Positions 36,119 through 51,154 of a stretch of DNA of 64,000 nt are shown here, piece by piece. A program made the position numbers and the translations under genes. Every line of letters starts with the position of its first letter. The stretch's first letter is position 1. The stretch spans positions 310,001 through 374,000 of the forward strand of contig NZ_JAESVN010000004.1 in NCBI RefSeq assembly GCF_016765775.1. Reading direction: 5' to 3'. This DNA comes from Szabonella alba. Its GTDB lineage: Bacteria > Pseudomonadota > Alphaproteobacteria > Rhodobacterales > Rhodobacteraceae. The notes below the pieces were generated by a model. It saw only the letters and a program-made list of their open reading frames with translations, did no database searches and was not told the DNA's origin.

Positions 36119-37099
36119 ATGGGTTTTCTTCAACTCACGTCACTGTCGAAACGCTTCGGCACCTTCACCGCTGTCGAGGATTTCAATCTCGACATTGAAA
36201 AGGGCGAATTCGTCAGCCTGCTTGGCCCCTCGGGCTGCGGCAAGACGACCACGCTCCAGATGATCGCGGGGTTTCTGGAACCAACCGCAGGCCGGATCAC
36301 CGTCGAGGGCGAGGATCTCGTCGCCATCCCCTCGGCCAAACGCAATATCGGCATCGTCTTTCAGTCCTATGCGCTGTTTCCGCATCTGACGGTGGCCCAG
36401 AACATTGCCTTCGGGCTGGAGATGCGCGGCATCACCGCGATGGAGCGGTCGCAGCGGATCGCGCGGGCCATCGACATCGTGCATCTGAAAGGGTTCGAGG
36501 CGCGCTTTCCCAAACAGCTTTCGGGGGGTCAGCAACAGCGCGTGGCGCTGGCGCGGGCCATCGTGATCGAGCCGCGCATCCTGCTGCTGGATGAACCGAT
36601 GTCGAACCTCGATGCGAAACTGCGCGAGGACATGCAGCTTGAACTGCGCCAGATCCAGCAGGAACTGGGCATCACCACGCTGCTTGTCACCCATGACCAG
36701 CATGAGGCGATGGCCCTGTCGGACCGGATCGCGGTCATGCAGGGGGGGCGGATCGTTCAGATCGGCGCGCCCTATGAGATTTACGAAAACCCGTCCAGCC
36801 GCTTCGTCTCAACCTTCCTTGGCAAGTCGAACCTGCTGCCCGATCCCGCGCAGATGGCGCGGCAAATCTCACTCCGGCCCGAAAAGACAAGGCTGGTCCC
36901 CGCCGGTCAGGGCAAATTGCAGGGCCGGGTGACGGCCTGCATCTTCTTCGGGGCGCATTGGCTTTATCAGGTGGACACAGATCACGGGCTGTTGCTGGCC
37001 TATGAACAGAACCTCGGTGCCGCCCGCGCCCGCAACGGCGAAACCGTCGGCATCGACTGGGATGAGGCGCATCTGCGCCATCTGGAGGGGCAGGAATGA
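36119..37099 (+). CDS. ABC transporter ATP-binding protein, PotA-like
   Basis: The protein has 326 residues. Walker A GPSGCGKTT, signature KQLSGGQQQRVALARAIV and Walker B ILLLDEPMSNLDAKLRED are all present, followed by the switch His in VTHDQHEAMALSD. A shorter C-terminal TOBE-like regulatory domain covers about 245-326 (ISLRPEKTRLV). It is shorter than E. coli PotA (378). Its stop overlaps the next permease gene (ATGA). Confidence 0.92.
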   Translation: MGFLQLTSLSKRFGTFTAVEDFNLDIEKGEFVSLLGPSGCGKTTTLQMIAGFLEPTAGRITVEGEDLVAIPSAKRNIGIVFQSYALFPHLTVAQNIAFGLEMRGITAMERSQRIARAIDIVHLKGFEARFPKQLSGGQQQRVALARAIVIEPRILLLDEPMSNLDAKLREDMQLELRQIQQELGITTLLVTHDQHEAMALSDRIAVMQGGRIVQIGAPYEIYENPSSRFVSTFLGKSNLLPDPAQMARQISLRPEKTRLVPAGQGKLQGRVTACIFFGAHWLYQVDTDHGLLLAYEQNLGAARARNGETVGIDWDEAHLRHLEGQE

Positions 37100-37956
37100 C
37101 CCCCGCCCTGTACCGCCGCACCGCCCCCTATTGGCTGAGCCTGCCGGGTTTCGTGCTGTTCGCGGTCATGCTGTTCGTGCCGCTGGTCATGACGCTGTTG
37201 CTGAGCTTTTACAGCTTCGACTATACCGCAGGCATCCAGACCGGGTTTTCATGGCACAACTATGCCGATGTGGTCTCGGACGATTATTTCCATGAAATCT
37301 TCTGGCGGACCTTCCGCTATGGGCTGATTGTCACGCTGTTCTGTATCGTGATCGGCGTGCCCGAGGCCTATATCCTGAACCGGATGCGCGCGCCCTGGCG
37401 CACGATCAGTCTGGTGGCGATCATCGGGCCGCTGTTGATCTCGGTCGTGGTGCGCACGCTGGGCTGGGTCATCCTGATGGGCAATAACGGGCTGGTCAAT
37501 ACAGGGCTGGAGCGGATCGGCCTTGCCAAGATCCCCTTCATCTATACCGAGACGGGCGTGATCGTGGCGCTGATCCATGTGATGATCCCCTTCATGATCA
37601 TCTCGGTCTGGGCGGTCCTGCAAAAGGTCGATCCGGCAACCGAGAATGCGGCGGCCTCCCTGGGCGCCTCGCAGCCGAAGGTGTTTTTCCGCGTGGTCGT
37701 GCCGCAGGTGATCCCCGGCATCCTGTCGGGGTCGCTGATCGTCTTTTCGCTGACCACTTCGGCCTTTGCGACGCCCGCCATCATCGGGGGGCGGCGGCTG
37801 AAAGTGGCCTCGACCACAATCTATGACGAGTTTCTCAACACGCTTGAATGGCCCCTCGGGGCGGCCATCGCGATCATCCTGCTGCTGGGGATCATGGCCG
37901 TGATCCTTGGCTGGAACCGGCTGATCGAGCGGCGTTATGCACAGGTGTTCCAATGA
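37096..37956 (+). CDS. ABC transporter permease, PotB-like
   Basis: The protein has 286 residues with six helices. The EAA loop reads ENAAASLGASQPKVFFRVVVP with the conserved Gly, and PGILSGSLIVFSLTTSAFATPAIIGG (quoted in part) is the typical TM5 region of PotB. Start and stop are both ATGA overlaps with neighbours, so it is tightly coupled. Confidence 0.92.
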   Translation: MTPALYRRTAPYWLSLPGFVLFAVMLFVPLVMTLLLSFYSFDYTAGIQTGFSWHNYADVVSDDYFHEIFWRTFRYGLIVTLFCIVIGVPEAYILNRMRAPWRTISLVAIIGPLLISVVVRTLGWVILMGNNGLVNTGLERIGLAKIPFIYTETGVIVALIHVMIPFMIISVWAVLQKVDPATENAAASLGASQPKVFFRVVVPQVIPGILSGSLIVFSLTTSAFATPAIIGGRRLKVASTTIYDEFLNTLEWPLGAAIAIILLLGIMAVILGWNRLIERRYAQVFQ

Positions 37957-38750
37957 ACCAGAACGGACCTTTCGCGCTGATCTTTCACGCGCTGTTCATC
38001 CTTTTCATGATCGCGCCGCTGGCGGTGGTGGTCTGGGTGTCCTTCACGCCACTTGGCTATATCGACGCGCCGACCACGGACTGGTCGCTGCGCTGGTATC
38101 GCGAGATCTGGAACAGTTCGGGCTTTATCCAAAGCTTCTGGCTGTCGCTGGGCCTTGCCTTTGCGGCGGCAACCCTGTCGCTGGTGGCGGCGGTGCCTGC
38201 GGCGCTGGCCATCGCGCGCTATGATTTCCACGGGCGCGGCTTTCTGACGGCGATGTTCCTGTCGCCCCTGATGATCCCCTCGGTGGTTCTGGGCATCGCC
38301 TTTCTGCGCTTCATGACGGCAATCTCGATCACCGGCACTTTCTACGGCATGGTGCTGTGCCATGCGGTTTTCGTGATGCCCTTCGTGCTGCGCCTCACGC
38401 TGGCCTCGGTCACGGGGATGGACCGGCAGGCGGAAAATGCCGCGATCTCGCTGGGGGCGTCGAACATGACGACCTTCCGCCGGGTGACCTTTCCGATGAT
38501 CCTGCCGGGCATGGTGGGGGGCTGGGTTCTGGCCTTCATTACCAGTTTTGATGAACTGACCGTGTCGGTCTTCATCGCGTCGCCCTCGCTGACCACGCTG
38601 CCAGTGCGGCTGTTCAACCATATCACCCAGACGACAACCCCGATCGTCGCCTCGGTCTCGGCAGTCATCATCTTCCTGTCGCTGGCGGTGATCCTGATCC
38701 TTGAACGGCTTTACGGGCTGGACCGGCTGCTGGTGGGAACGAAAAGATGA
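37953..38750 (+). CDS. ABC transporter permease, PotC-like
   Basis: The protein has 265 residues. The EAA loop is ENAAISLGASNMTTFRRVTFP, and FITSFDELTVSVFIASPSLTTLP is the PotC-type sequence after it (quoted in part). The ATG at 37953 overlaps the PotB-like stop. An in-frame ATG about 100 bases upstream lies inside the previous gene and gives no membrane-protein sequence. It completes the importer. Confidence 0.92.
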   Translation: MNQNGPFALIFHALFILFMIAPLAVVVWVSFTPLGYIDAPTTDWSLRWYREIWNSSGFIQSFWLSLGLAFAAATLSLVAAVPAALAIARYDFHGRGFLTAMFLSPLMIPSVVLGIAFLRFMTAISITGTFYGMVLCHAVFVMPFVLRLTLASVTGMDRQAENAAISLGASNMTTFRRVTFPMILPGMVGGWVLAFITSFDELTVSVFIASPSLTTLPVRLFNHITQTTTPIVASVSAVIIFLSLAVILILERLYGLDRLLVGTKR

Positions 38751-39862
38751 CAGTGACAATCAAGGTGGATGCCGCCGTGGTGGGCGGCGGGCTGGTGGGG
38801 TCTGCGGTGGCCTTCGGCCTGATGGAACGGGGGCTGTCTGTCGCCCTCTTGGATGAGGGCGATGTCGCCTTCCGCGCCTCACGCGGGAATTTCGGGCTGG
38901 TCTGGGTGCAGGGCAAGGGTGACGGGCGCTGGCAATATGCGCATTGGTCGCGCCGCTCGGCCGATATGTGGCCCGGTTTCGCCGAGGATCTGAAGGCCGC
39001 CTGCGGCGTCGATGTCGAATATGACAAGCCCGGCGGATACTATTTCACCATGTCCGAGGACGAACACCGCACGCGCGGCGAATCGCTGGAGCGGATGCGG
39101 CGTGAGGTGCCCGGCGGCTATGATTTCGAGATGCTGCGCCGCAACCAGCTTCTGAACATCTTTCCCGGTCTGGGGGAAGAGGTCATCGGCGCCTCATGGT
39201 GTCCGCATGACGGCCATGCCAATCCGCTGTCGCTGCTGCGCGCCTTCCACGCCACGATGAAGGGTCGCGTGCGCCATCTGACCGGCGCTGGCGCGTCCAG
39301 CGTCACGCCCGAAGGGTCCGCCTTCCGCATCGAGGCTGGCAGCACCAGTGTGCTGGCTGGCAAGGTGGTTCTGGCCGCAGGGCTGGGCAACCGCGATCTG
39401 GCGCCGATGGTCGGGCTGCGGGCCGAGGTGAAACCGCTGAAAGGCCAGATCCTTGTCACCGAACGTCTGGCGCCGAAATTCGGTGGGCTGACACTGAATG
39501 TCCGCCAGACCGGCGACGGCACCGTGATGATCGGCGACAGCCATGAGGATGTCGGGTTTCAGACCGAGGCCAATGTCGGGATCGGCCGCAATATCGCGGC
39601 CCGGGCGATCCGGCAGTTCCCGGCGCTGGCGCAGGCCGGACTGGTCCGGCAATGGGCGGCGCTTCGGATCATGGCCCCGGACGGCTATCCGATCTACGAA
39701 CAATCGGCCACGCATCCCGGTGCTTTCGTCGTCAACTGCCACAGCGGTGTGACGCTGGCCGCCGCCCATGCCAGATCGCTGGCCGTGCAGATCGCCGCAG
39801 GCCAGCTGGAGCCGCTGCTGGACCCTTTCCATGGTGCCCGTTTCGAGGACAAGATCGCATGA
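38747..39862 (+). CDS. FAD-dependent oxidoreductase, DAO family (first of two)
   Basis: The protein has 371 residues. FAD motif AAVVGGGLVGSAVAFGLMERG with VALLDEGD, then ASRGNFGLVWVQGKG in the place where the GASG/GNGG flavin segment lies, and a C-terminal HSGVTLAAAHA. It starts on an ATGA overlap with the permease gene, so import and oxidation are co-translated. DAO proteins of such clusters are the catalytic beta subunit of heteromeric D-amino-acid/opine/hydroxyproline dehydrogenases. A second DAO gene lies three genes on. Confidence 0.85.
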   Translation: MTVTIKVDAAVVGGGLVGSAVAFGLMERGLSVALLDEGDVAFRASRGNFGLVWVQGKGDGRWQYAHWSRRSADMWPGFAEDLKAACGVDVEYDKPGGYYFTMSEDEHRTRGESLERMRREVPGGYDFEMLRRNQLLNIFPGLGEEVIGASWCPHDGHANPLSLLRAFHATMKGRVRHLTGAGASSVTPEGSAFRIEAGSTSVLAGKVVLAAGLGNRDLAPMVGLRAEVKPLKGQILVTERLAPKFGGLTLNVRQTGDGTVMIGDSHEDVGFQTEANVGIGRNIAARAIRQFPALAQAGLVRQWAALRIMAPDGYPIYEQSATHPGAFVVNCHSGVTLAAAHARSLAVQIAAGQLEPLLDPFHGARFEDKIA

Positions 39863-40155
39863 GTTTCACAAGAACCCCCACCGCCGCGCGCAGCGTGCAG
39901 TTCAGCTTTGACGGGATGCCGGTTCAGGCGCGCGAAGGCGACAGCGTGGCCGCCGCCCTGCTGGCCGCCGGGATCGACCGGTTCCGCACAACACCGAAAC
40001 AGGGCAAGCCCCGCCTGCCCTATTGCATGATGGGCATCTGTTTCGACTGCCTGCTGGAGATTGACGGCGAGGCCAACCGTCAGGGCTGCATGGTCGAGGT
40101 GCGGGACGGCATGCAGGTCCGGCGTCAGGATCAAAGCCGCGAGGTGCGGCTGTGA
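39859..40155 (+). CDS. Small 2Fe-2S protein (HcnA/OoxX-like gamma subunit)
   Basis: The protein has 98 residues. A beta-grasp ferredoxin-like fold with FSFDGMPVQAREGDSVAAALLAAG and the cluster cysteines in PYCMMGICFDCLLEIDG plus a later QGCMVEV matches the small Fe-S subunit of hydrogen-cyanide synthase, octopine/nopaline oxidase and D-hydroxyproline dehydrogenase. The ATG overlaps the previous stop (ATGA) and the gene's own stop overlaps the next start (GTGA). It passes electrons between the flavin subunits or to the respiratory chain. Confidence 0.88.
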   Translation: MSFTRTPTAARSVQFSFDGMPVQAREGDSVAAALLAAGIDRFRTTPKQGKPRLPYCMMGICFDCLLEIDGEANRQGCMVEVRDGMQVRRQDQSREVRL

Positions 40156-41534
40156 AACAGGATCTGGTGATCGTGGGGGCTGGCCCTGCCGGAATGGGAG
40201 CAGCCATCGAGGCGCGTCGTGCCGGTCTGTCGGTGCTGGTGCTGGACGAACAATCCGCCCCGGGCGGGCAGATTTACCGGCAGGTAGAGCGCGTGACGCT
40301 GACCGAGACCGCCCGTGCCGACCGGCTGGGGCCGGATTACGCCCATGGCGCGGCCCTTGTGCGCGAATTCCGCGACAGCGGGGCCGAGTATCTGCCGGGC
40401 GCTATGGTCTGGCAGATCGAGGCGGGCAAGGTCTGGTATCTGTCGGGTGACCGCGCGGCCAGCGCCGATGCCGGACAGATCCTGATGGCGACCGGCGCGA
40501 TCGAACGGCCCATGACCCGCAAGGGCTGGACCCTGCCGGGGGTGATGAGTGCGGGTGGCGTTCAGATCCTGCTGAAATCCTCGGGCATGATCCCCGGCGC
40601 CGATACGGTGCTGGCCGGTTCGGGGCCGCTGCTTTACCTGATTGCCGGGCAGATCCTTGCGGCGGGCGGCAGGCTGCAGGCGATTGTCGAGACCGTGCCA
40701 TCGTCCCGCTATCTGGCCGCCGCCCGGCATCTGCCTGCCGCCCTTGGCACCGGTTATCTGTCCAAGGGGCTGGCAATGCTGATGGGGCTGCGCCGCAAGG
40801 GCGTACAGATCTATCGGGGCGTGTCGGATCTGGAAGTGACCGGCCGAGACCGCGCCGAGGCGCTGCATTTCCGTCACAAGGGACAGGCGGTGACGCTGAC
40901 AACCTCGCTGGTGGTGCTGCATGAAGGGGTGATCCCCAACCAGCAGATCACGCGACTGACCGAATGCGCGCATGACTGGAACCCGGCGCAGGACTGTTTT
41001 GAACCCCGCACGGATGACTGGGGCAATGCCTCGGTCCCCGGGTTGATGATCGCGGGCGACGGGGCCGGGATCGGTGGGGCATGGGCAGCCGAGGCGGGCG
41101 GCAGGCTGGCAGGGCTTGAAGCCGCGCGGGCCGCAGGCCGCATCGACACCACCACCCGCGACGCACAGGCCGCCCCCCTGCGCGCGCGCCTCAACGCGCT
41201 GATCCGGGGGCGCGGCTTTCTGGAAGTGCTTTATGCGCCGTCGGCCCCGGTGCCCAAGGATGACGCCACCATCGTCTGCCGCTGCGAGGAAATCACCGCA
41301 GGCCAGATCCGTGAGGCCGTGGCCATAGGGGGGCTGGGCCCCAATCAGGTGAAATCCTATCTGCGTTGCGGCATGGGCCCCTGTCAGGGCCGGATGTGCG
41401 GCCCGGTGGTGACCGCGATCATCGCCGAGGAACGCGGCGTCAGCCCCGATGCGATCGGCTATTTCCGCATCCGACCGCCGCTGAAACCCATTCCGCTGGC
41501 CGCCATCGCGAATGCGGAACCGGGGGACGGCTAG
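40152..41534 (+). CDS. FAD/NAD(P)-binding oxidoreductase with BFD-type Fe-S domain (HcnB/OoxA-like alpha subunit)
   Basis: The protein has 460 residues. First dinucleotide motif LVIVGAGPAGMGAAIEARR, second about 150 residues on (TVLAGSGPLLYLIAGQIL), and GLMIAGDGAGIGGAWAAEAGG for FAD. The C-terminal BFD-like domain has four cysteines, CRCEEITAGQ and YLRCGMGPCQGRMCG, that should hold a second 2Fe-2S cluster. Start is the GTG at 40152, overlapping the previous stop. With the gamma subunit and a DAO subunit this makes a complete heterotrimeric amine dehydrogenase. Confidence 0.9.
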   Translation: MKQDLVIVGAGPAGMGAAIEARRAGLSVLVLDEQSAPGGQIYRQVERVTLTETARADRLGPDYAHGAALVREFRDSGAEYLPGAMVWQIEAGKVWYLSGDRAASADAGQILMATGAIERPMTRKGWTLPGVMSAGGVQILLKSSGMIPGADTVLAGSGPLLYLIAGQILAAGGRLQAIVETVPSSRYLAAARHLPAALGTGYLSKGLAMLMGLRRKGVQIYRGVSDLEVTGRDRAEALHFRHKGQAVTLTTSLVVLHEGVIPNQQITRLTECAHDWNPAQDCFEPRTDDWGNASVPGLMIAGDGAGIGGAWAAEAGGRLAGLEAARAAGRIDTTTRDAQAAPLRARLNALIRGRGFLEVLYAPSAPVPKDDATIVCRCEEITAGQIREAVAIGGLGPNQVKSYLRCGMGPCQGRMCGPVVTAIIAEERGVSPDAIGYFRIRPPLKPIPLAAIANAEPGDG

Positions 41535-42667
41535 TGGGCAGTCCCGATGTCGTGGTGATCGGCGGCGGGCTGCATGGCTGTGCCACCGCGCTGCATTGCG
41601 CCCGGGCGGGCCTGCAGGTCGAACTCCTGGAGCGTGAGGCCGTGGGCCGTCATGCCTCGGGCGTCAATGCCGGGGGTGTGCGGCAATTGGGGCGGCATTA
41701 TTCCGAGGTGCCGCTGTCGGTGCTGGCCATGCAGATGTGGCGGTCCATCGGCGATCTGGTCGATGATGATTGCGGCTTTCAGCCCTCGGGCCAGATCAAG
41801 GTTGCGGGAACCGAGGCGCATATGGAGGCGAACCGCGCCCGCGTGGCAAGGTTGCAGACCATGGGATTCGCGCATGAAGAGGTGATCGGCGCGGATGAAT
41901 TGCGCGCATTGCTGCCCGCGCTGTCCGATGGACATCCCGGCGCGCTGATCTCACGGCAGGACGGGTTCGCCAATCCCTACCGCACCACGACCGCCTTTCG
42001 CCGCAAGGCGCAATCGCTGGGTGTCCGCATCCATGAAGGGCGCGCCGCCACCGCACTGACCCGCGACGGGGCCCGCGAAGGCGGCGGCTTTCGCATCGAC
42101 ACGGCCCAGGGGCCGCTGCGGGCCGCGCGGGTGGTGAATTGCGCGGGCGCATGGGCCGGGACGATCTGTGCCGCGATGGGGGAACCCGTGCCGATCCGCG
42201 CCGCAGCGCCGATGATGACGATCACCGCCCCGATGGCGCCCTTCGTTTCCCCCGTCGTGGGGTTTTCCGGCGCTCCGCTGTCGTTCAAGCAATTTGCAAA
42301 TGGTACGGTGATGATCGGCGGCGGCTATTCCGGTGAGGCCGATCTGGACACCGGCCTGACCCGGCTGCGTCATGACCGGCTGGCCGTCAACCTGCGCACG
42401 GCGATGGATCTTTTCCCGGTGATGGCCGGGGCGCGGATCGTGCGGCACTGGGCGGGGGTCGAGGGTGAAATGCCCGATGCGATCCCGGTGATCGGGCCAA
42501 GTTCAACGACCGAAGGCCTGTTTCACGCTTTCGGTTTTTCTGCCCATGGCTTTCAGCTTGGCCCCGTCGTGGGCCTGCTGATTGCCGATCTCATTCAGCA
42601 GGGCAGAAGCCGGCTGAACCTTGCGGATTTCGCGATCTCGCGTTTCCGCACCCAAGACGAAACCTGA
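41534..42667 (+). CDS. FAD-dependent oxidoreductase, DAO family (second of two)
   Basis: The protein has 377 residues from a GTG that shares one base with the previous TAG stop. FAD motif VVVIGGGLHGCATALHCARAG with VELLERE, then ASGVNAGGVRQLGRHYSEVPL (quoted in part), and FSAHGFQLGPVVGLLIADL near the end. The AGG-x-R pattern and HGFQLGP tail are closer to HcnC/OoxB-type catalytic subunits than those of the first DAO gene, so this is the better candidate for the beta subunit of the trimer. An upstream ATG in the same frame would give a nonsense N terminus inside the previous gene. Confidence 0.87.
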   Translation: MGSPDVVVIGGGLHGCATALHCARAGLQVELLEREAVGRHASGVNAGGVRQLGRHYSEVPLSVLAMQMWRSIGDLVDDDCGFQPSGQIKVAGTEAHMEANRARVARLQTMGFAHEEVIGADELRALLPALSDGHPGALISRQDGFANPYRTTTAFRRKAQSLGVRIHEGRAATALTRDGAREGGGFRIDTAQGPLRAARVVNCAGAWAGTICAAMGEPVPIRAAAPMMTITAPMAPFVSPVVGFSGAPLSFKQFANGTVMIGGGYSGEADLDTGLTRLRHDRLAVNLRTAMDLFPVMAGARIVRHWAGVEGEMPDAIPVIGPSSTTEGLFHAFGFSAHGFQLGPVVGLLIADLIQQGRSRLNLADFAISRFRTQDET

Positions 42668-46070: not shown

Positions 46071-46706
46071 CTAGCCTTCGCGCAGTCCCATCCGTGCCGC
46101 ATGCCAAGCCGCCTCGGCCCGCGATCCGATGCCCAGCTTGCGATAGACGATCTTGATATAGCCCGCGACCGTGGTTTCGGCGATCCCCATGGTCTGGGCC
46201 ACCTCGCCATTGCGCAGCCCGCGCGCGATCAGGCCCAGGACCTCGCGTTCGCGTTCGGTCAGGCTGCTTTCCGGTTCGGCGGCGGGGCCGGTATGGCGGA
46301 AATGTTCCATGATGCGCCGCGCGATGGCCGGGGACAGCGCTGGCAGTCCAAGCGAGATCTGGCCCAGTTGCCGGATCAGGACGGGGGCGGCGTTTTCCTT
46401 CAGCAGGTATCCATCCGCCCCTGCGCACAAGGCCGCCACAACGCTGGCATCATCCCCCATGACAGTGGTGACGACACAGATCGTGGGTTCCGGACCGCGC
46501 CGCAGATCGCGCAGGAAATCCAGCCCCGACCCGTCCGGCAGGCCAAGGTCGATCAGCGCCAGATCATGCGGCTGATCCAGCAGCACCCGCGCCCCGCGCA
46601 GCGTATCGGCCTCGGAAATCCGCGCCTCGGGAAAGGCACTTTGCGCAATCTCGCCCAGCCAGCGACGGGTCTCGGCGATATCCTCGACGATCAGGATACG
46701 CTTCAT
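46071..46706 (-). CDS. NarL/FixJ-type response regulator
   Basis: The protein has 211 residues. The receiver domain (about 1-120) has RILIVEDIAETRR at the acidic pocket, the phosphoacceptor Asp in LALIDLGLPDGSG and the switch Lys in DGYLLKENAAP. The LuxR-type helix-turn-helix follows (LTEREREVLGLIARGLRNGEV and MGIAETTVAGYIKIVYRKLG). The ATG overlaps the kinase stop (ATGA), so kinase and regulator are made together. Target genes are unknown; the divergent lipoprotein-Slam pair and the glutamate-synthase-like gene are neighbours. Confidence 0.92.
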   Translation of the reverse strand: MKRILIVEDIAETRRWLGEIAQSAFPEARISEADTLRGARVLLDQPHDLALIDLGLPDGSGLDFLRDLRRGPEPTICVVTTVMGDDASVVAALCAGADGYLLKENAAPVLIRQLGQISLGLPALSPAIARRIMEHFRHTGPAAEPESSLTEREREVLGLIARGLRNGEVAQTMGIAETTVAGYIKIVYRKLGIGSRAEAAWHAARMGLREG

Positions 46707-48967
46707 GCGGCCTTCTCCTTCTCGCTGGATGACAGCGGCAGTTCGGCAATAAGACTGGTGCCTTCGGGCCCTGTCCTGACCTCAAGCCGCCCGCCGCATT
46801 GTTCGATCCGGTCGCGCAGGTTTATGAACCCGTTGCCCGCCCGCAGCGCATCGGGATCGAACCCCCTGCCGTCATCGCGCAGGCACAGGTCCAGCGCCGG
46901 CGCCCCCTCGATCAAGGCCGGGGCCGCGCCGCTTCCGGGCTGTGCATCGCCAGCGCCCCCGGCGTTGCTGATCCTGCGGCCGGTGATGCGCACGGTGGCC
47001 TGCGCCGCCCCCGAATGGCGCATCAGATTGCTGATCCCTTCCCGCAGGAAGGCGCGCAGCGTATGCACCACGCGCGGTGACAGCTTCGCCTCGGGCAGGT
47101 TGCCGTCCTGCCAGTCCAGCGTCACACCCGCCACCTCCAGATGTTCGGCCACCTCACCCCGCAGATCGGCCAGCAGGCGCAGCAGATCAAGGCTTTCCAT
47201 TGCCGGGTTCGAGATGATTTCCCGCAGGTCGGTCAGCGTCTGGCGGATCAGCAGATCCTTGCGCTCCAGCCCCGGGGAATGCAGCGCGCCCAGCAGCAGC
47301 ACGCCGATATTGTCATGCATGTCGCGGCTGATCCGCCGGCGCTCGGCCTCGACCGCCTCACGATAGGCGCGATGCTGGTCGATGGCGCGCTGCAACAGGC
47401 TTGCCATCCGCCCGGCCATGGCCAGATCGCGTGAAGAAAACAGCCGCTCTCCGCCCTGTGCCCAGTCCAGCCGCATGGCGGAAAGCCCGGCAACCGACGG
47501 AAAGATCAGCGCCTCCCCGTCGGTGGCCAGTTGTGGCTCGGTCAGCGGCGCGGCCAGCGGGGTGATTGCCAGCGGCGCGAAACGGTCGCGCAACAGCCCC
47601 GCCAGCCTGCGGCCCTGTTCGCCCGGTTCATCGGCCTGCGCGATCTCGGCGAAACGCAGGAACAGATCCTCGGCCGACATTTCACGCTCCCGGCGAAAGC
47701 GCGTGGCCAGCCAGCCGCGCAGCGGCAGATAGGCCAGCGCCACGATCGCAATCGAGACGCCCAGCGCCGGGGCCCGGTCCAGCGCCAGCCCGAAGATCAA
47801 GAGCGCATCCAGCGCCAGCAGCAGCGCGACCCCCCCGGCATAGAACAGAAACCGGAACGACCAGTCGGCCAGATCGAACAGCCGATAGCGCAGCACGCCA
47901 AGGCAGAGCCCGACATAGATCAGCAGAAACAGCAGGAACGCCGTGCTTTGCGCCAGAACCGGCGGGCGGCCCAGCATCACAGGCAGAATGACGGTCAGAA
48001 CGAAGCCCCCTGCCCCGACCGCAACCGACAGGCCGAACCAGCCCAGCATCGCCCGGGCCCGGGCATCGCGCCGGTTGGCCCAGATCTGCGCGCCAAGAGC
48101 CGCCAGCAGCGCCGCCATCGTCGCTGCGACAACCGGTTGCAGCAGCGGCGTGCGCTCGGGCCAGTTGTCGAACTGGATCCACAGGATGGTGCCGATCAGG
48201 ATGAAGGCGGGTGCCACCAGCCGCAGCCCCCGGGCCAGCGGTTTGGGATAGATCAGGAACAGCGTCACCATCCCCACCCCGAAGATCAGCGTGCCGATGG
48301 AATTGCTGCGGCTCGCAATCTCGAAAACCAGCGGGTCCAGCGCGATTTCACGCGTTGAATAGAGTGCCGCCGATTGCGAGGACAGCGCCAGCCCCAGCCC
48401 CGCCAGCAACAGCATCCAGGCCGCGCGGTCCGACAGGCGCAGCGCCACCACCCAGGCCCCCAGCCACAGCCCCGCCAGCCCGACGCCGATCTGCGTCCAG
48501 AAGGCGGCGGGCAGATCGGTGACCGGGCGGCTGCTGGCCGGTTCCAGCGTCACGCTGCGCGCGCCTTCGGGCGTGGTGTAGTCGAACCGCACCGCCCCGC
48601 CCTGCAGCGCGCCATGCAGATCGCCCTGCCGGTCCAGAAAGCGCCGCATTGCAGGGGCCGAACCCAGCATGTCGGGTTCCTCGATCCGGTCGGCGGGCTC
48701 CAGCGTCAGCCCCGGGGCCGGGGCGGTGCCCAGCCCGCCGGGCGGCGCGATGCGCAACACCTGCGCGCCCTCGGGCAGCGACCGCCCCGGCCCGTCCTGC
48801 GCGCTGGATCCGACCACGATGCCGCTGTCCGAAATCCGCAGATCAACCCCCAGCCATGGCTGCTGAACCGCAGCCCAGATGACAAGCGCGGCCTGCATCA
48901 GCCCCAGCAGGATCGCGCCCGTCAGGACGGTTCCGGGGGCGATCAGCCTGATGACACGCGTTCCCAT
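46703..48967 (-). CDS. Membrane sensor histidine kinase (HisKA_3 type)
   Basis: The protein has 754 residues. TM1 at ~10-32 is followed by a periplasmic part of ~100 residues that looks PDZ-like (WLGVDLRISDSGIVV, ALQGGAVRFDYTTPEG), then seven or so helices (e.g. GVGLAGLWLGAWVVALRL, IGTLIFGVGMVTLFLIY, SFRFLFYAGGVALLLALDAL) as in 7TM receptors. A GAF-like region and HisKA_3 dimerisation domain follow, with the phosphoacceptor His in ERRRISRDMHDNIGVLLLGA, and HATPase with GISNLMRHSG and DDGRGFDPDAL. AAGGAAAGG precedes the ATG at 48967. It feeds the overlapping response regulator. Signal unknown. Confidence 0.88.
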   Translation of the reverse strand: MGTRVIRLIAPGTVLTGAILLGLMQAALVIWAAVQQPWLGVDLRISDSGIVVGSSAQDGPGRSLPEGAQVLRIAPPGGLGTAPAPGLTLEPADRIEEPDMLGSAPAMRRFLDRQGDLHGALQGGAVRFDYTTPEGARSVTLEPASSRPVTDLPAAFWTQIGVGLAGLWLGAWVVALRLSDRAAWMLLLAGLGLALSSQSAALYSTREIALDPLVFEIASRSNSIGTLIFGVGMVTLFLIYPKPLARGLRLVAPAFILIGTILWIQFDNWPERTPLLQPVVAATMAALLAALGAQIWANRRDARARAMLGWFGLSVAVGAGGFVLTVILPVMLGRPPVLAQSTAFLLFLLIYVGLCLGVLRYRLFDLADWSFRFLFYAGGVALLLALDALLIFGLALDRAPALGVSIAIVALAYLPLRGWLATRFRREREMSAEDLFLRFAEIAQADEPGEQGRRLAGLLRDRFAPLAITPLAAPLTEPQLATDGEALIFPSVAGLSAMRLDWAQGGERLFSSRDLAMAGRMASLLQRAIDQHRAYREAVEAERRRISRDMHDNIGVLLLGALHSPGLERKDLLIRQTLTDLREIISNPAMESLDLLRLLADLRGEVAEHLEVAGVTLDWQDGNLPEAKLSPRVVHTLRAFLREGISNLMRHSGAAQATVRITGRRISNAGGAGDAQPGSGAAPALIEGAPALDLCLRDDGRGFDPDALRAGNGFINLRDRIEQCGGRLEVRTGPEGTSLIAELPLSSSEKEKAA

Positions 48968-49034: not shown

Positions 49035-49051
49035 CCCCCCGAACAGGGGGG
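49035..49051. repeat. 6-bp hairpin in the kinase/lipoprotein divergent region
   Basis: cccccc (49035-49040) and gggggg (49046-49051) flank gaaca. It lies 72 bases before the lipoprotein start in the 155-bp space shared by the kinase and lipoprotein promoters. Either a leader stem or a chance G/C run. Confidence 0.3.
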
Positions 49052-49122
49052 AGACGATGCGGGATCCGGCGACCATAGATTGTTCCGCCAACGGATTGGC
49101 TGCAATCGGGGAGATACTGAAT

Positions 49123-49785
49123 ATGGGTAATGTTGCAAGAATGGTGGTCGCTTTGACGGCCGTGACGGGTCTTTCGGCCTGTCTGGGCAGTGGTAGCGGC
49201 GGTGGTGGCGCTGGCGGCGGTGGCGGCGGCGGTGGTGGCGGTGGGTCCTACCAGTCGAATTTCGATGCGGTCAGCGGACAGGGACCGACGCAGAACATGC
49301 CGACCAGCCTGAATGCCGACTATTCCGGCCAGATGGAGGTTGACGTCAATGACGGCACCCAGTCCGGAACGGCCTATGCCGATCTCGACATCGCCGTGAA
49401 CTGGACCGAAGGCCAGTCCAGCAATCCATTCAGCGGCACGGCATCGAACTTCACGGGCGAACTGGCCTCGGGTCAAGCCGGGGATATCACCGGGACGCTT
49501 GAAGTCGTTGATGCACCGGTCGGCACGATCAACCGGTCCACATTCGCCGTCCCGGCACCGGGCAGCGGCACGGTCAGTGTCGGAGGCGGCCAGTTCACCA
49601 TGCGCGGCGATCTGGCCGTGGACGGAACCGAATATGACACGACGCTGCTGCTGGGCGGAAACTTCTTCGGCTCCGGCGCCAGTGCCATGCAGGGCGCCGT
49701 TTCCGGCGGCGTGAAGGAAAAGGGCATCGGCGGCGCATTGTTCGACGCCGCCGCCGGCGGCACCTTCTACCTGATCCAGGATTGA
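49123..49785 (+). CDS. Transferrin-binding-protein-like surface lipoprotein with poly-Gly linker
   Basis: The protein has 220 residues. Signal peptide with lipobox LSAC, Cys20 lipidated, then a tether of about 20 residues that is almost all Gly/Ser. The rest is a beta-rich domain with YSGQMEVDVNDG, DLDIAVNW, FTGELASG, FTMRGDLAVDGTEYDTTLLLGGNFFG and ending GALFDAAAGGTFYLIQD (each quoted in part), like the TbpB-type eight-stranded barrel with its GNFFG and final G-x-F-x-x strand. GGGGAG precedes the ATG at 49123. The next gene is Slam-like, so it is probably flipped to the cell surface. Iron binding is not implied; known Slam clients have varied ligands. Confidence 0.8.
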   Translation: MGNVARMVVALTAVTGLSACLGSGSGGGGAGGGGGGGGGGGSYQSNFDAVSGQGPTQNMPTSLNADYSGQMEVDVNDGTQSGTAYADLDIAVNWTEGQSSNPFSGTASNFTGELASGQAGDITGTLEVVDAPVGTINRSTFAVPAPGSGTVSVGGGQFTMRGDLAVDGTEYDTTLLLGGNFFGSGASAMQGAVSGGVKEKGIGGALFDAAAGGTFYLIQD

Positions 49786-49852
49786 TCCTCGACCCCAGTT
49801 ATCCTGAGGATCAAAACGTCCGGTCCCTTGACCAGTCCCCTCGGGGCCGGAC
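49782..49852 (+). terminator. Hairpins between lipoprotein and Slam genes
   Basis: ttgatcctc (49782-49790) pairs with gaggatcaa (49806-49814) right over the stop codon, and gtccggtccc (49818-49827) pairs with ggggccggac (49843-49852) including one G-T pair. The second is followed by acccttttcg, so it looks like a leaky Rho-independent terminator that lowers Slam relative to its client. Confidence 0.55.
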
Positions 49853-49876
49853 ACCCTTTTCGCCAGTGGAGATGTG

Positions 49877-51154
49877 ATGCGTGGCCTGATCCTTGTTCTG
49901 GCGCTTGCCCTGATGCCCTTCAGCGCCCATGCGCAGGATATCGCCGCGGCAGAGCGCGCGATTGCCGCCGGGCGGCACGCCGAAGGGCTGGCGATGGCCG
50001 AGGCGGTTCAGCCCCGCGACGAGGCCGAGACGGTCCGCAGGCTGTGGGCCATTGCTGTCGGCTACGGTCGTCAGGGGCGCCCCCGCGCGGCCATCGTCCC
50101 TTTGGAACGTCTGGTCGCCCTGCAACCCGCCGATCCGCGCTGGCGGCTGGAATTGGCCGCAGCCCTTGCCGAAACCGGGCAACAGGACCGCGCGCGCTAT
50201 CACTATGAACTGGCGCGGGGGGCCGACAATCTTGCCCCGCCGATCCGCCGCGCGCTGGAACAGCGCCTTGACGCGCTGGACCGCGACAAGAACTGGTATC
50301 TCGATTTCCGCCTTGCGCTGATCCCCGAAAGCAACGCTGAAAAGCGCACGGGTGCCGAACGGGTGACCATCGGCGGACTGCAATTCGGCATCAATCCCAA
50401 TGCGCGGGAACGTCCGGCCACGGGGCTTGATTTCGGGCTGGGCGTGACGCTGCTGCCGCAACTTGCCCCCGACCTGCGCGCCCGGCTGTCTGCGCAGTTC
50501 GATGCACGGCTGTTCGACGGGAATGCCTCGGACGATGTGACGCTGCGGATGGGGGCGGGGCTGTTGCGCTTTGCCGATCACGGGCAGCGCCTGTCGGCCG
50601 ATCTTTTCACCACGCGCCGCTGGCTGGCAGGCCGTGCTTATACCCGCTCGGTCGGGCTGGAACTGGGCTATTCGCGCAGGATCAGCGAGCGCATGACCTT
50701 CGGCGCGACGCTGCTGCGTGACCGCACCGATTATCTGAGCACGCCCTTCCATGCAGACCGCAACGCGCTGTTTCTTCAGGCGATGCATGTCGTCTCATCC
50801 CAACTGCTGCTGCGCGGCGGGCTGCGGTTCGAGAACCGCCGCAGCGCCAATCCCGGACTGGCCGGGGATGCGGCAGGCATCAGCCTTGGCGGGCAGTATC
50901 TGTTCGCCGGGGGCTTGCGCGTCGCACTGGACCTGCATTTCGACCGCAATGATTTCGACGGGCTGCATCCGCTGTTCGGCATCCGGCGGCAGGACCGCAG
51001 GCAGCAAGCGGTGATCCAGATCACCAATGCGAACTGGAATTACAAAGGCTTCGCCCCGGTTCTGAAACTGGGATATGACCGCCAGAAATCCACGGTCATC
51101 ATGAACGACTATCGCAACCTTTCGGCAGCAATCGGATTCACCCGGTCGTTCTGA
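49877..51154 (+). CDS. Slam-type outer-membrane protein (surface lipoprotein assembly modifier, DUF560)
   Basis: The protein has 425 residues. Signal peptide to about 20 (LILVLALALMPFSAHAQ), then a TPR-like helical domain to about 125 (ERAIAAGRHAEGLAMAEA, WRLELAAALAETGQQDRARYHY in part). From about 135 to the end it is a beta-barrel: alternating strands such as NWYLDFRLALIPESNAEKR, RSVGLELGYSRRISERMTFG, FAGGLRVALDLHFDRNDF and a final SAAIGFTRSF with terminal Phe for BAM insertion. This is the two-domain plan of Slam proteins of the type XI secretion system, which carry client lipoproteins across the outer membrane. GGAG stands 5 bases before the ATG at 49877. Confidence 0.82.
   Translation: MRGLILVLALALMPFSAHAQDIAAAERAIAAGRHAEGLAMAEAVQPRDEAETVRRLWAIAVGYGRQGRPRAAIVPLERLVALQPADPRWRLELAAALAETGQQDRARYHYELARGADNLAPPIRRALEQRLDALDRDKNWYLDFRLALIPESNAEKRTGAERVTIGGLQFGINPNARERPATGLDFGLGVTLLPQLAPDLRARLSAQFDARLFDGNASDDVTLRMGAGLLRFADHGQRLSADLFTTRRWLAGRAYTRSVGLELGYSRRISERMTFGATLLRDRTDYLSTPFHADRNALFLQAMHVVSSQLLLRGGLRFENRRSANPGLAGDAAGISLGGQYLFAGGLRVALDLHFDRNDFDGLHPLFGIRRQDRRQQAVIQITNANWNYKGFAPVLKLGYDRQKSTVIMNDYRNLSAAIGFTRSF

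Follow-up and report, generated by a model that had tools for sequence, protein, structure and literature searches.

A type XI secretion pair of Szabonella alba and its probable control by a divergent PDZ-type two-component system

Which signal controls type XI secretion (T11SS) in free-living bacteria is not stated in the literature that we found, and a locus of Szabonella alba raises the question of how a T11SS pair might be switched. Within the 64,000-nucleotide stretch of DNA analyzed here (the window), an earlier note had proposed that a gene for a glycine-tethered lipoprotein and the gene that follows it encode a surface-lipoprotein client and a Slam, the T11SS outer-membrane protein. 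According to the available text of PMC5449769, every clade of Proteobacteria contains Slams, and of 353 Slams, 185 adjoin genes with a lipobox; that of PMC12282271 reports that for most T11SS outer-membrane proteins a cargo is neither known nor predicted. The note regarded the setting as unexpected, and the pair is indeed found in a member of the Rhodobacteraceae, yet the surprise is smaller than supposed because T11SS genes of Rhodobacteraceae and Roseobacteraceae are already described in the available part of PMC12282271, so that the client and Slam alone would be one more pair of a known kind. The new and informative parts, which the note missed, are a conserved, divergent sensor-regulator pair and a palindrome beside the T11SS genes (Table 1). 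A predicted PDZ sensor, a regulator, and a short DNA site would together offer a direct handle on T11SS switching and on listing the regulon.

Table 1. Features of the locus, in window positions
Feature	Position	Strand	Basis
Sensor histidine kinase, 754 aa from inferred ATG	46703..48967	-	PDZ-like domain, several TM segments, H-box RDMHDN, HATPase
PDZ-like domain of kinase, probably periplasmic, about residues 36-150	48518..48862	-	Predicted fold; weak sequence match in one orthologue
NarL/LuxR-type response regulator	46071..46706	-	Response_reg + GerE
Palindromic candidate operator CCCCCGAACAGGGG (49036-49049) + GGAGAC	49036..49055	+	Alignment of 8 intergenic regions
Surface-lipoprotein client, 220 aa	49123..49785	+	Signal peptide, lipobox, tether, single barrel domain; profile match conserved in relatives
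Client tether, residues 22-42	49186..49248	+	Exclusively Gly/Ser/Ala, 21 residues
Slam / T11SS outer-membrane protein, 425 aa	49877..51154	+	PF04575, 86.5 bits (cut-off 22)

A Slam and its lipoprotein client

The second gene of the pair starts at an ATG, with an alternative GTG at 49874, and its product has the hydrophobic N-terminus, TPR-like region, and C-terminal Phe that the earlier note described. The Slam (DUF560) domain named there was found by profile search: PF04575 (SlipAM) aligned with residues 140 to 425 (50294-51151) over the whole profile (1-288 of 288; E 2.9e-24), the sole match in the source genome. Against the N-terminal region, the TPR_Slam model scored 19.9 bits, below its cut-off of 35.2; among generic TPR models the four best gave E values of 6e-4 to 3e-3, all TPR matches falling below cut-off, and a search of solved chains with a Slam profile matched a TPR chain at E 1.9e-4. 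Among 295 genomes of the family, 99 matched PF04575 at E 0.001 (91 above cut-off), and thus a T11SS protein is not rare in this group.

The client reading frame, which has a further in-frame ATG at 49057, encodes the lipobox LSAC with lipidated Cys20 (lipobox and signal peptide read by eye), the tether, and a beta-rich region (residues 43-220) predicted to form a single barrel domain. This agrees with the earlier description of a lipobox protein with a Gly/Ser tether of about 20 residues and a beta-rich C-terminal domain, a 220-residue client of about one barrel. Profile searches for the TbpB barrel domain, which the note also suggested, went the other way. No Pfam family matched the client (P0001); PF01298 (TbpB_B_D) was not found in the source genome at E values up to 0.1 and weakly matched 3 of 8 rows of the client alignment (best E 0.035); and NF041636, the NCBIfam model for Slam-dependent surface lipoproteins, scored 14.8 bits, short of its cut-off of 80. 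A homologue among solved sequences was sought with the client alone and with the 8-row profile; the matches were mainly glycine-linker artefacts and none was credible. A cargo so divergent that neither Pfam nor NCBIfam recognizes it suggests that such pairs are undercounted in surveys based on annotation.

To the extent that the client is TbpB-like, the likeness lies in its predicted fold. An AlphaFold2 model built from a 4-row alignment was of medium quality (mean pLDDT 65.3, pTM 0.62) and contained a helix (residues 43-51) followed by nine strand segments. Foldseek returned no match at E 0.001 or better; hemophilin was best (E 4.3e-3), and it and the NHBA C-terminal domain (6cuj; E 2.2e-2) both stood in the first four rows. 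VIA comparison with NHBA gave Z 9.9 and rmsd 3.4 over 128 residues, with similar scores for fHbp (4ayn; Z 9.8) and TbpB chains (Z 9.7, rmsd above 5). The NHBA C-terminal domain and the fHbp C-terminal barrel resemble the client in its predicted helix and then predicted eight-strand-type barrel but differ in sequence (13-15% identity). Moreover, the top VIA rows were ordinary 8-strand outer-membrane barrels, PagL (Z 12.2) and OprF (Z 12.0), which out-score NHBA and fHbp, so fold alone is no proof of kinship with them. We conclude that the modeled fold class, a single barrel resembling NHBA, fHbp, TbpB, and hemophilin, is likely right.

The hemophilin match raises the question of whether the pair is a co-receptor for iron, heme, or metal uptake of the TbpB, HpuA, or hemophilin kind, to which a two-component system would be incidental. 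The available text of PMC5449769 is consistent with such a role, as 120 of the 185 Slam clusters with lipoproteins also hold TonB receptors. In this window, by contrast, Pfam matched no TonB receptor among the 33 other open reading frames scanned (5 of them without any match), in agreement with the earlier note, and the conserved neighbors of the pair are a kinase and a regulator rather than transport genes. The mature client contains no His and no Cys other than the lipidated one, and its 8 homologous rows have 0 to 4 His and 1 Cys apiece. The heme handling raised in the note thus found no support; a client role in heme uptake is unlikely, and the uptake co-receptor as a whole is improbable.

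A kinase and a regulator conserved beside the pair

An alignment-based search of genome contigs recovered seven named relative loci: Pseudotabrizicola alkalilacus, a Sulfitobacter MAG, a Paracoccaceae MAG, Rhodalgimonas zhirmunskyi, Rhodobacteraceae UBA6796, Oceaniglobus ichthyenteri, and a record titled Enemella evansiae. The last (L058; JAFKDC010000004.1) bears the name of an actinobacterium and is probably mislabelled or contaminated. Client and then Slam were adjacent in all 8 loci (the window and 7 relatives), and since both genes occur in seven relatives with their order unchanged, the pairing is not due to chance. With the PF04575 match, the conserved adjacency, and the predicted client barrel, the type XI assignment of the earlier note holds. 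We conclude that client and Slam are, by family, near certainly a T11SS pair, which would export the client to the cell surface.

Divergent from the client, on its upstream side, lie the kinase and regulator genes (46071-48967), and downstream of Slam are a GNAT acetyltransferase gene and a tRNA-Thr. Farther away in the window (36119-42667), ABC transporter genes lie with three FAD-dependent oxidoreductases, one of which carries a domain of sarcosine-oxidase type; together they are probably an amino-acid catabolic cluster. The kinase was present in 8/8 core loci (complete in 7/8) and the regulator in 7/8, the contig of L054 ending inside the kinase. When open reading frames of at least 90 aa from 6.6 to 23 kb per locus were compared all against all (blastp E 1e-10, identity at least 28%), the families common to at least 4 of the 8 loci, shadow reading frames aside, were just the client, Slam, the divergent kinase, and the regulator. 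Because the other flanking genes vary between loci, the conserved four-gene set is not merely inherited synteny.

The regulator matched Response_reg (53 bits) and GerE (60 bits), giving a receiver plus a DNA-binding domain. In the kinase, HATPase_c scored 17.4 bits, below the cut-off of 26.4, and exceeded the cut-off in all four orthologues scanned; the H-box RDMHDN was invariant in 7/7 kinases. A model of the first 165 kinase residues (10-row alignment, pLDDT 87.7) contained a long helix, a beta/alpha domain, and a second hydrophobic helix. Of the best 50 Foldseek rows, 49 named HtrA, Deg, Prc, Ctp, or PDZ proteins (best E 1.0e-3), and the best VIA comparison with a PDZ gave Z 8.3 and rmsd 2.2 over 79 residues. 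Pfam matched no PDZ domain in the window kinase; among 8 other kinases, one approached PDZ_6 at 26.3 bits (cut-off 27). A sequence-profile route to the domain was set aside, the profile of the kinase N-terminus having returned no PDZ from the PDB. W38 and G40 were invariant and L39 near-invariant, at what we take to be the position of the PDZ carboxylate-binding loop, and the domain presumably faces the periplasm.

How closely the kinase is tied to T11SS was apparent from a census. Of the 295 family genomes, a kinase profile matched 14 at an E value of 1e-40, and a T11SS gene lay within 6 kb of the kinase in nine of these (G000, G002, G051, G073, G148, G182, G211, G261, and G271). A contig break divides the kinase locus of G094, which is therefore kept out of the count of loci with neither T11SS gene nor client; in G233 the kinase and regulator occur with neither client nor Slam. 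At the level of the order, 24 of 390 genomes matched at E 1e-60, 17 of them new and 16 taken in, and T11SS adjoined the kinase in 7/16. In total, 31 kinase genomes were found and 30 examined, G305, of the same genus and E-value as G304, being left out. A T11SS gene adjoined the kinase in 16 of the 30 loci, and neither T11SS gene nor client was present in 11. We conclude that the T11SS pair is a frequent, not the sole, partner of the two-component system and that this is not a dedicated T11SS kinase.

Several census loci had individual features. One (L062; G036:C84, 7646-11389) is apparently decaying: a stop codon interrupts the kinase, the client is intact and keeps its palindrome, and no Slam adjoins it. 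At L119 (G336:C2, 7020-11412) the kinase is split into two overlapping fragments read in different frames, and client, Slam, and palindrome are intact. At L061 (G228:C4, 6642-8879) three lipoproteins of TbpB-barrel type stand in a row by the kinase; the locus lacks a Slam, and a neighboring TamB-like frame scored 69.8 bits, far below the cut-off of that model. The client family profile resembled lipoproteins of G228 (profile comparison probability 97.3, E 1.7e-11), one of which had a sub-threshold TbpB_B_D match (19 bits versus 26). At L059 (G283:C1, 529-8004) a 2491-aa reading frame with 22 stretches of RTX calcium-binding repeats diverges from the orthologous kinase and regulator, and a palindrome lies next to that kinase-regulator pair.

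Client-type lipoproteins that lie by the kinase without an adjoining Slam, as in G036 and in G228, where just a distant Slam-like gene of 43.6 bits was detected, could mean that the lipoprotein remains periplasmic and that the outer-membrane protein serves another substrate. Adjacency of client and Slam in all eight core loci argues against this, as does the client's Gly-rich tether and barrel, which we assume to resemble those of known Slam clients. We consider a periplasmic client very unlikely.

A palindromic candidate operator

Alignment of eight intergenic regions revealed a sole conserved block, CCCC(C/T)GAACAGGGG, mostly followed by GGAGAC, in DNA that otherwise aligned poorly. The block is an inverted repeat with arms CCCCTG and CAGGGG separated by two bases; it reads CCCCYGAACAGGGG in the nearest relatives or takes the looser form CCCC-N5-7-GGGG. 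The window copy precedes the client start by 73 bp and is 68 bp away from the inferred start of the kinase; lying between divergent start codons, it is not a terminator. An Rfam scan found no family at the palindrome and gave one match inside the client gene, at E 0.14 and far below the gathering score. A sigma-70 promoter scan found nothing, and a terminator scan gave one terminator-like site, fewer than in shuffles.

The looser palindrome occurred within 250 bp upstream of the client in 15/15 kinase-linked loci (8 discovery loci and 7 inspected afterwards), with the exact N6 spacing in 14, and began 75 to 150 bp upstream of the client start; N6 density over whole loci predicts 0.027 sites per 250 bp. 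In the 1,500 bp before Slam, an N5, N6, or N7 form was found in 10/10 kinase-linked loci versus 0/15 T11SS loci without an adjoining kinase, one of which (L038) comes from G271, whose kinase sits at another locus; the 15 control loci generally have a lower GC content than the kinase loci, which makes a GC palindrome less likely there. A uniform rule, covering 400 bp before to 150 bp after the 5′ end of each kinase, client, and Slam reading frame and set after positions were known, was applied to the 16 later kinase loci. Palindromes were found in 11 (0.95 sites expected), comprising 7/7 loci with T11SS and 4/9 without, and were absent from these 5′ ends at L115, L120, L121, L123, and L124.

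Sites were present elsewhere at L123 (G443:C31, 4544-6644), where kinase and regulator are followed by small secreted proteins and one small lipoprotein. Here CCCC-N-GGGG palindromes precede three secreted-protein or lipoprotein frames behind the regulator by about 60 to 75 bp, a row whose site positions likely mark a regulon without T11SS.

The palindrome could also be the site of another conserved regulator, or a structural repeat, that is present here by coincidence. In keeping with that possibility, 36 of the 281 family genomes without a kinase match carry the exact core, and two of the ten core-bearing kinase genomes (G261 and G283) have it away from the kinase locus only, the locus itself carrying the looser form. 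However, 46 of 295 family genomes have the exact core, and these include 10 of the 14 with the kinase (Fisher p 2e-6). In seven of those ten (G000, G002, G036, G051, G073, G182, and G228) the core is at the client or kinase locus; in G148 one copy is 1.2 kb from the kinase and another far away. In G283 and G233, where the locus lacks T11SS, the looser form is still present beside the kinase, and the position between divergent starts and the lack of an Rfam family also speak against this alternative, which we consider quite unlikely. In G073, where the kinase is on the far side, the palindrome stays with the client, and in G228 a client gene distant from the kinase also bears one. G096, with client and no kinase, has no palindrome; G229, with client, Slam, and regulator and no kinase match, has two.

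A second, near-identical palindrome in the source genome (L114; G000:C11:166500-171000, site at 2200, C11:168699) lies 132 bp before the gene of a 118-aa secreted protein. It is one of six distal exact cores in kinase genomes, three of which precede secreted-protein frames (this one and those in G148 and G283) and three of which lie in or among unrelated frames (two in G036, one in G261). No homology was detected among the three distal secreted proteins or between them and proteins near other sites, and we therefore claim no wider regulon from them. The distribution of sites fits a palindrome that would serve as operator of the regulator for envelope proteins.

Proposed control and relation to known systems

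We consider it probable that client and Slam form one transcription unit controlled by the divergent PDZ-sensor two-component system via the palindrome. On this sequence-based reading, the client would be exported and lipidated; after its transfer to the outer membrane, Slam would flip it to the cell surface, and the Gly-rich tether would hold an NHBA/fHbp-like barrel off the membrane. Through its PDZ domain the kinase would read a periplasmic cue, the probable candidates being the C-terminus of a peptide and an envelope-stress ligand, and it would pass phosphate to the NarL-type regulator. The regulator would then bind the CCCC-N6-GGGG palindrome upstream of the client and set client and Slam transcription, in whichever direction. 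Such control, by a PDZ-type system through the palindrome, is likely.

What the surface barrel might bind would refine this proposal. With the NHBA C-terminal domain among the nearest folds (6cuj) and the kinase and regulator of G283 opposite a large RTX-repeat protein of secreted or surface type, the client may be a surface protein that acts as an adhesin or binds matrix and that the two-component system switches according to the state of the surface or envelope. Fold similarity reveals no ligand, though, and the client has only barrel and tether; adhesion or matrix binding is a tentative proposal from the model and our favored guess.

Alternatively, the client could be a reporter rather than an effector. 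Failure of Slam export or of outer-membrane assembly would leave an unexported client or an unfolded Slam with its C-terminus exposed in the periplasm, the kinase PDZ domain would bind it, and the regulator would raise client and Slam, or other envelope genes, via the palindrome. If true, such a circuit would join C-terminus sensing of the DegS type to a surface-lipoprotein check like that of RcsF, in a combination that feeds a two-component system. We regard the reporter role as rather unlikely.

The two-component system itself is like NarL/UhpA-type systems in combining a predicted HisKA_3/HATPase-type kinase with a GerE-type regulator and differs from them in the predicted N-terminal PDZ-like domain of the kinase. 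It scored far below the cut-offs of the NCBIfam MctS, UhpB, and LiaS models (48.8 of 700, 34.5 of 408, and 30.9 of 450). The PDZ domains of DegS, HtrA, Prc, and Ctp are the nearest solved folds to the sensor domain, which, unlike them, has no protease domain and is joined to a membrane kinase. Among the matches listed in the open-licence literature, we found no paper on PDZ histidine kinases and none on a T11SS-linked two-component system; in the available main text of PMC12282271 and PMC8406197, the terms histidine kinase, two-component, and response regulator have 0 mentions.

Among the closest published counterparts is the marine cluster 3 T11SS locus, which, in the available text of PMC12282271, comes from the same bacterial families and has a T11SS outer-membrane protein and a lipidated barrel cargo. 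Its cargo is longer (282-375 aa versus 220 aa), and its neighbors are thymidylate synthase, lactoylglutathione lyase, and DUF1194, whereas here they are the kinase and regulator. Slam systems with TbpB-type clients from Neisseria and others, as the accessible portions of PMC5449769 and PMC8406197 present them, share the SlipAM barrel, the TPR-like N-terminal region, and an adjacent lipobox client with a barrel domain, predicted in the window client. The window client differs from theirs in being a single barrel with a tether and no handle or effector domain, and its locus differs from theirs in having no TonB receptor found nearby and in carrying a two-component system and a palindrome.
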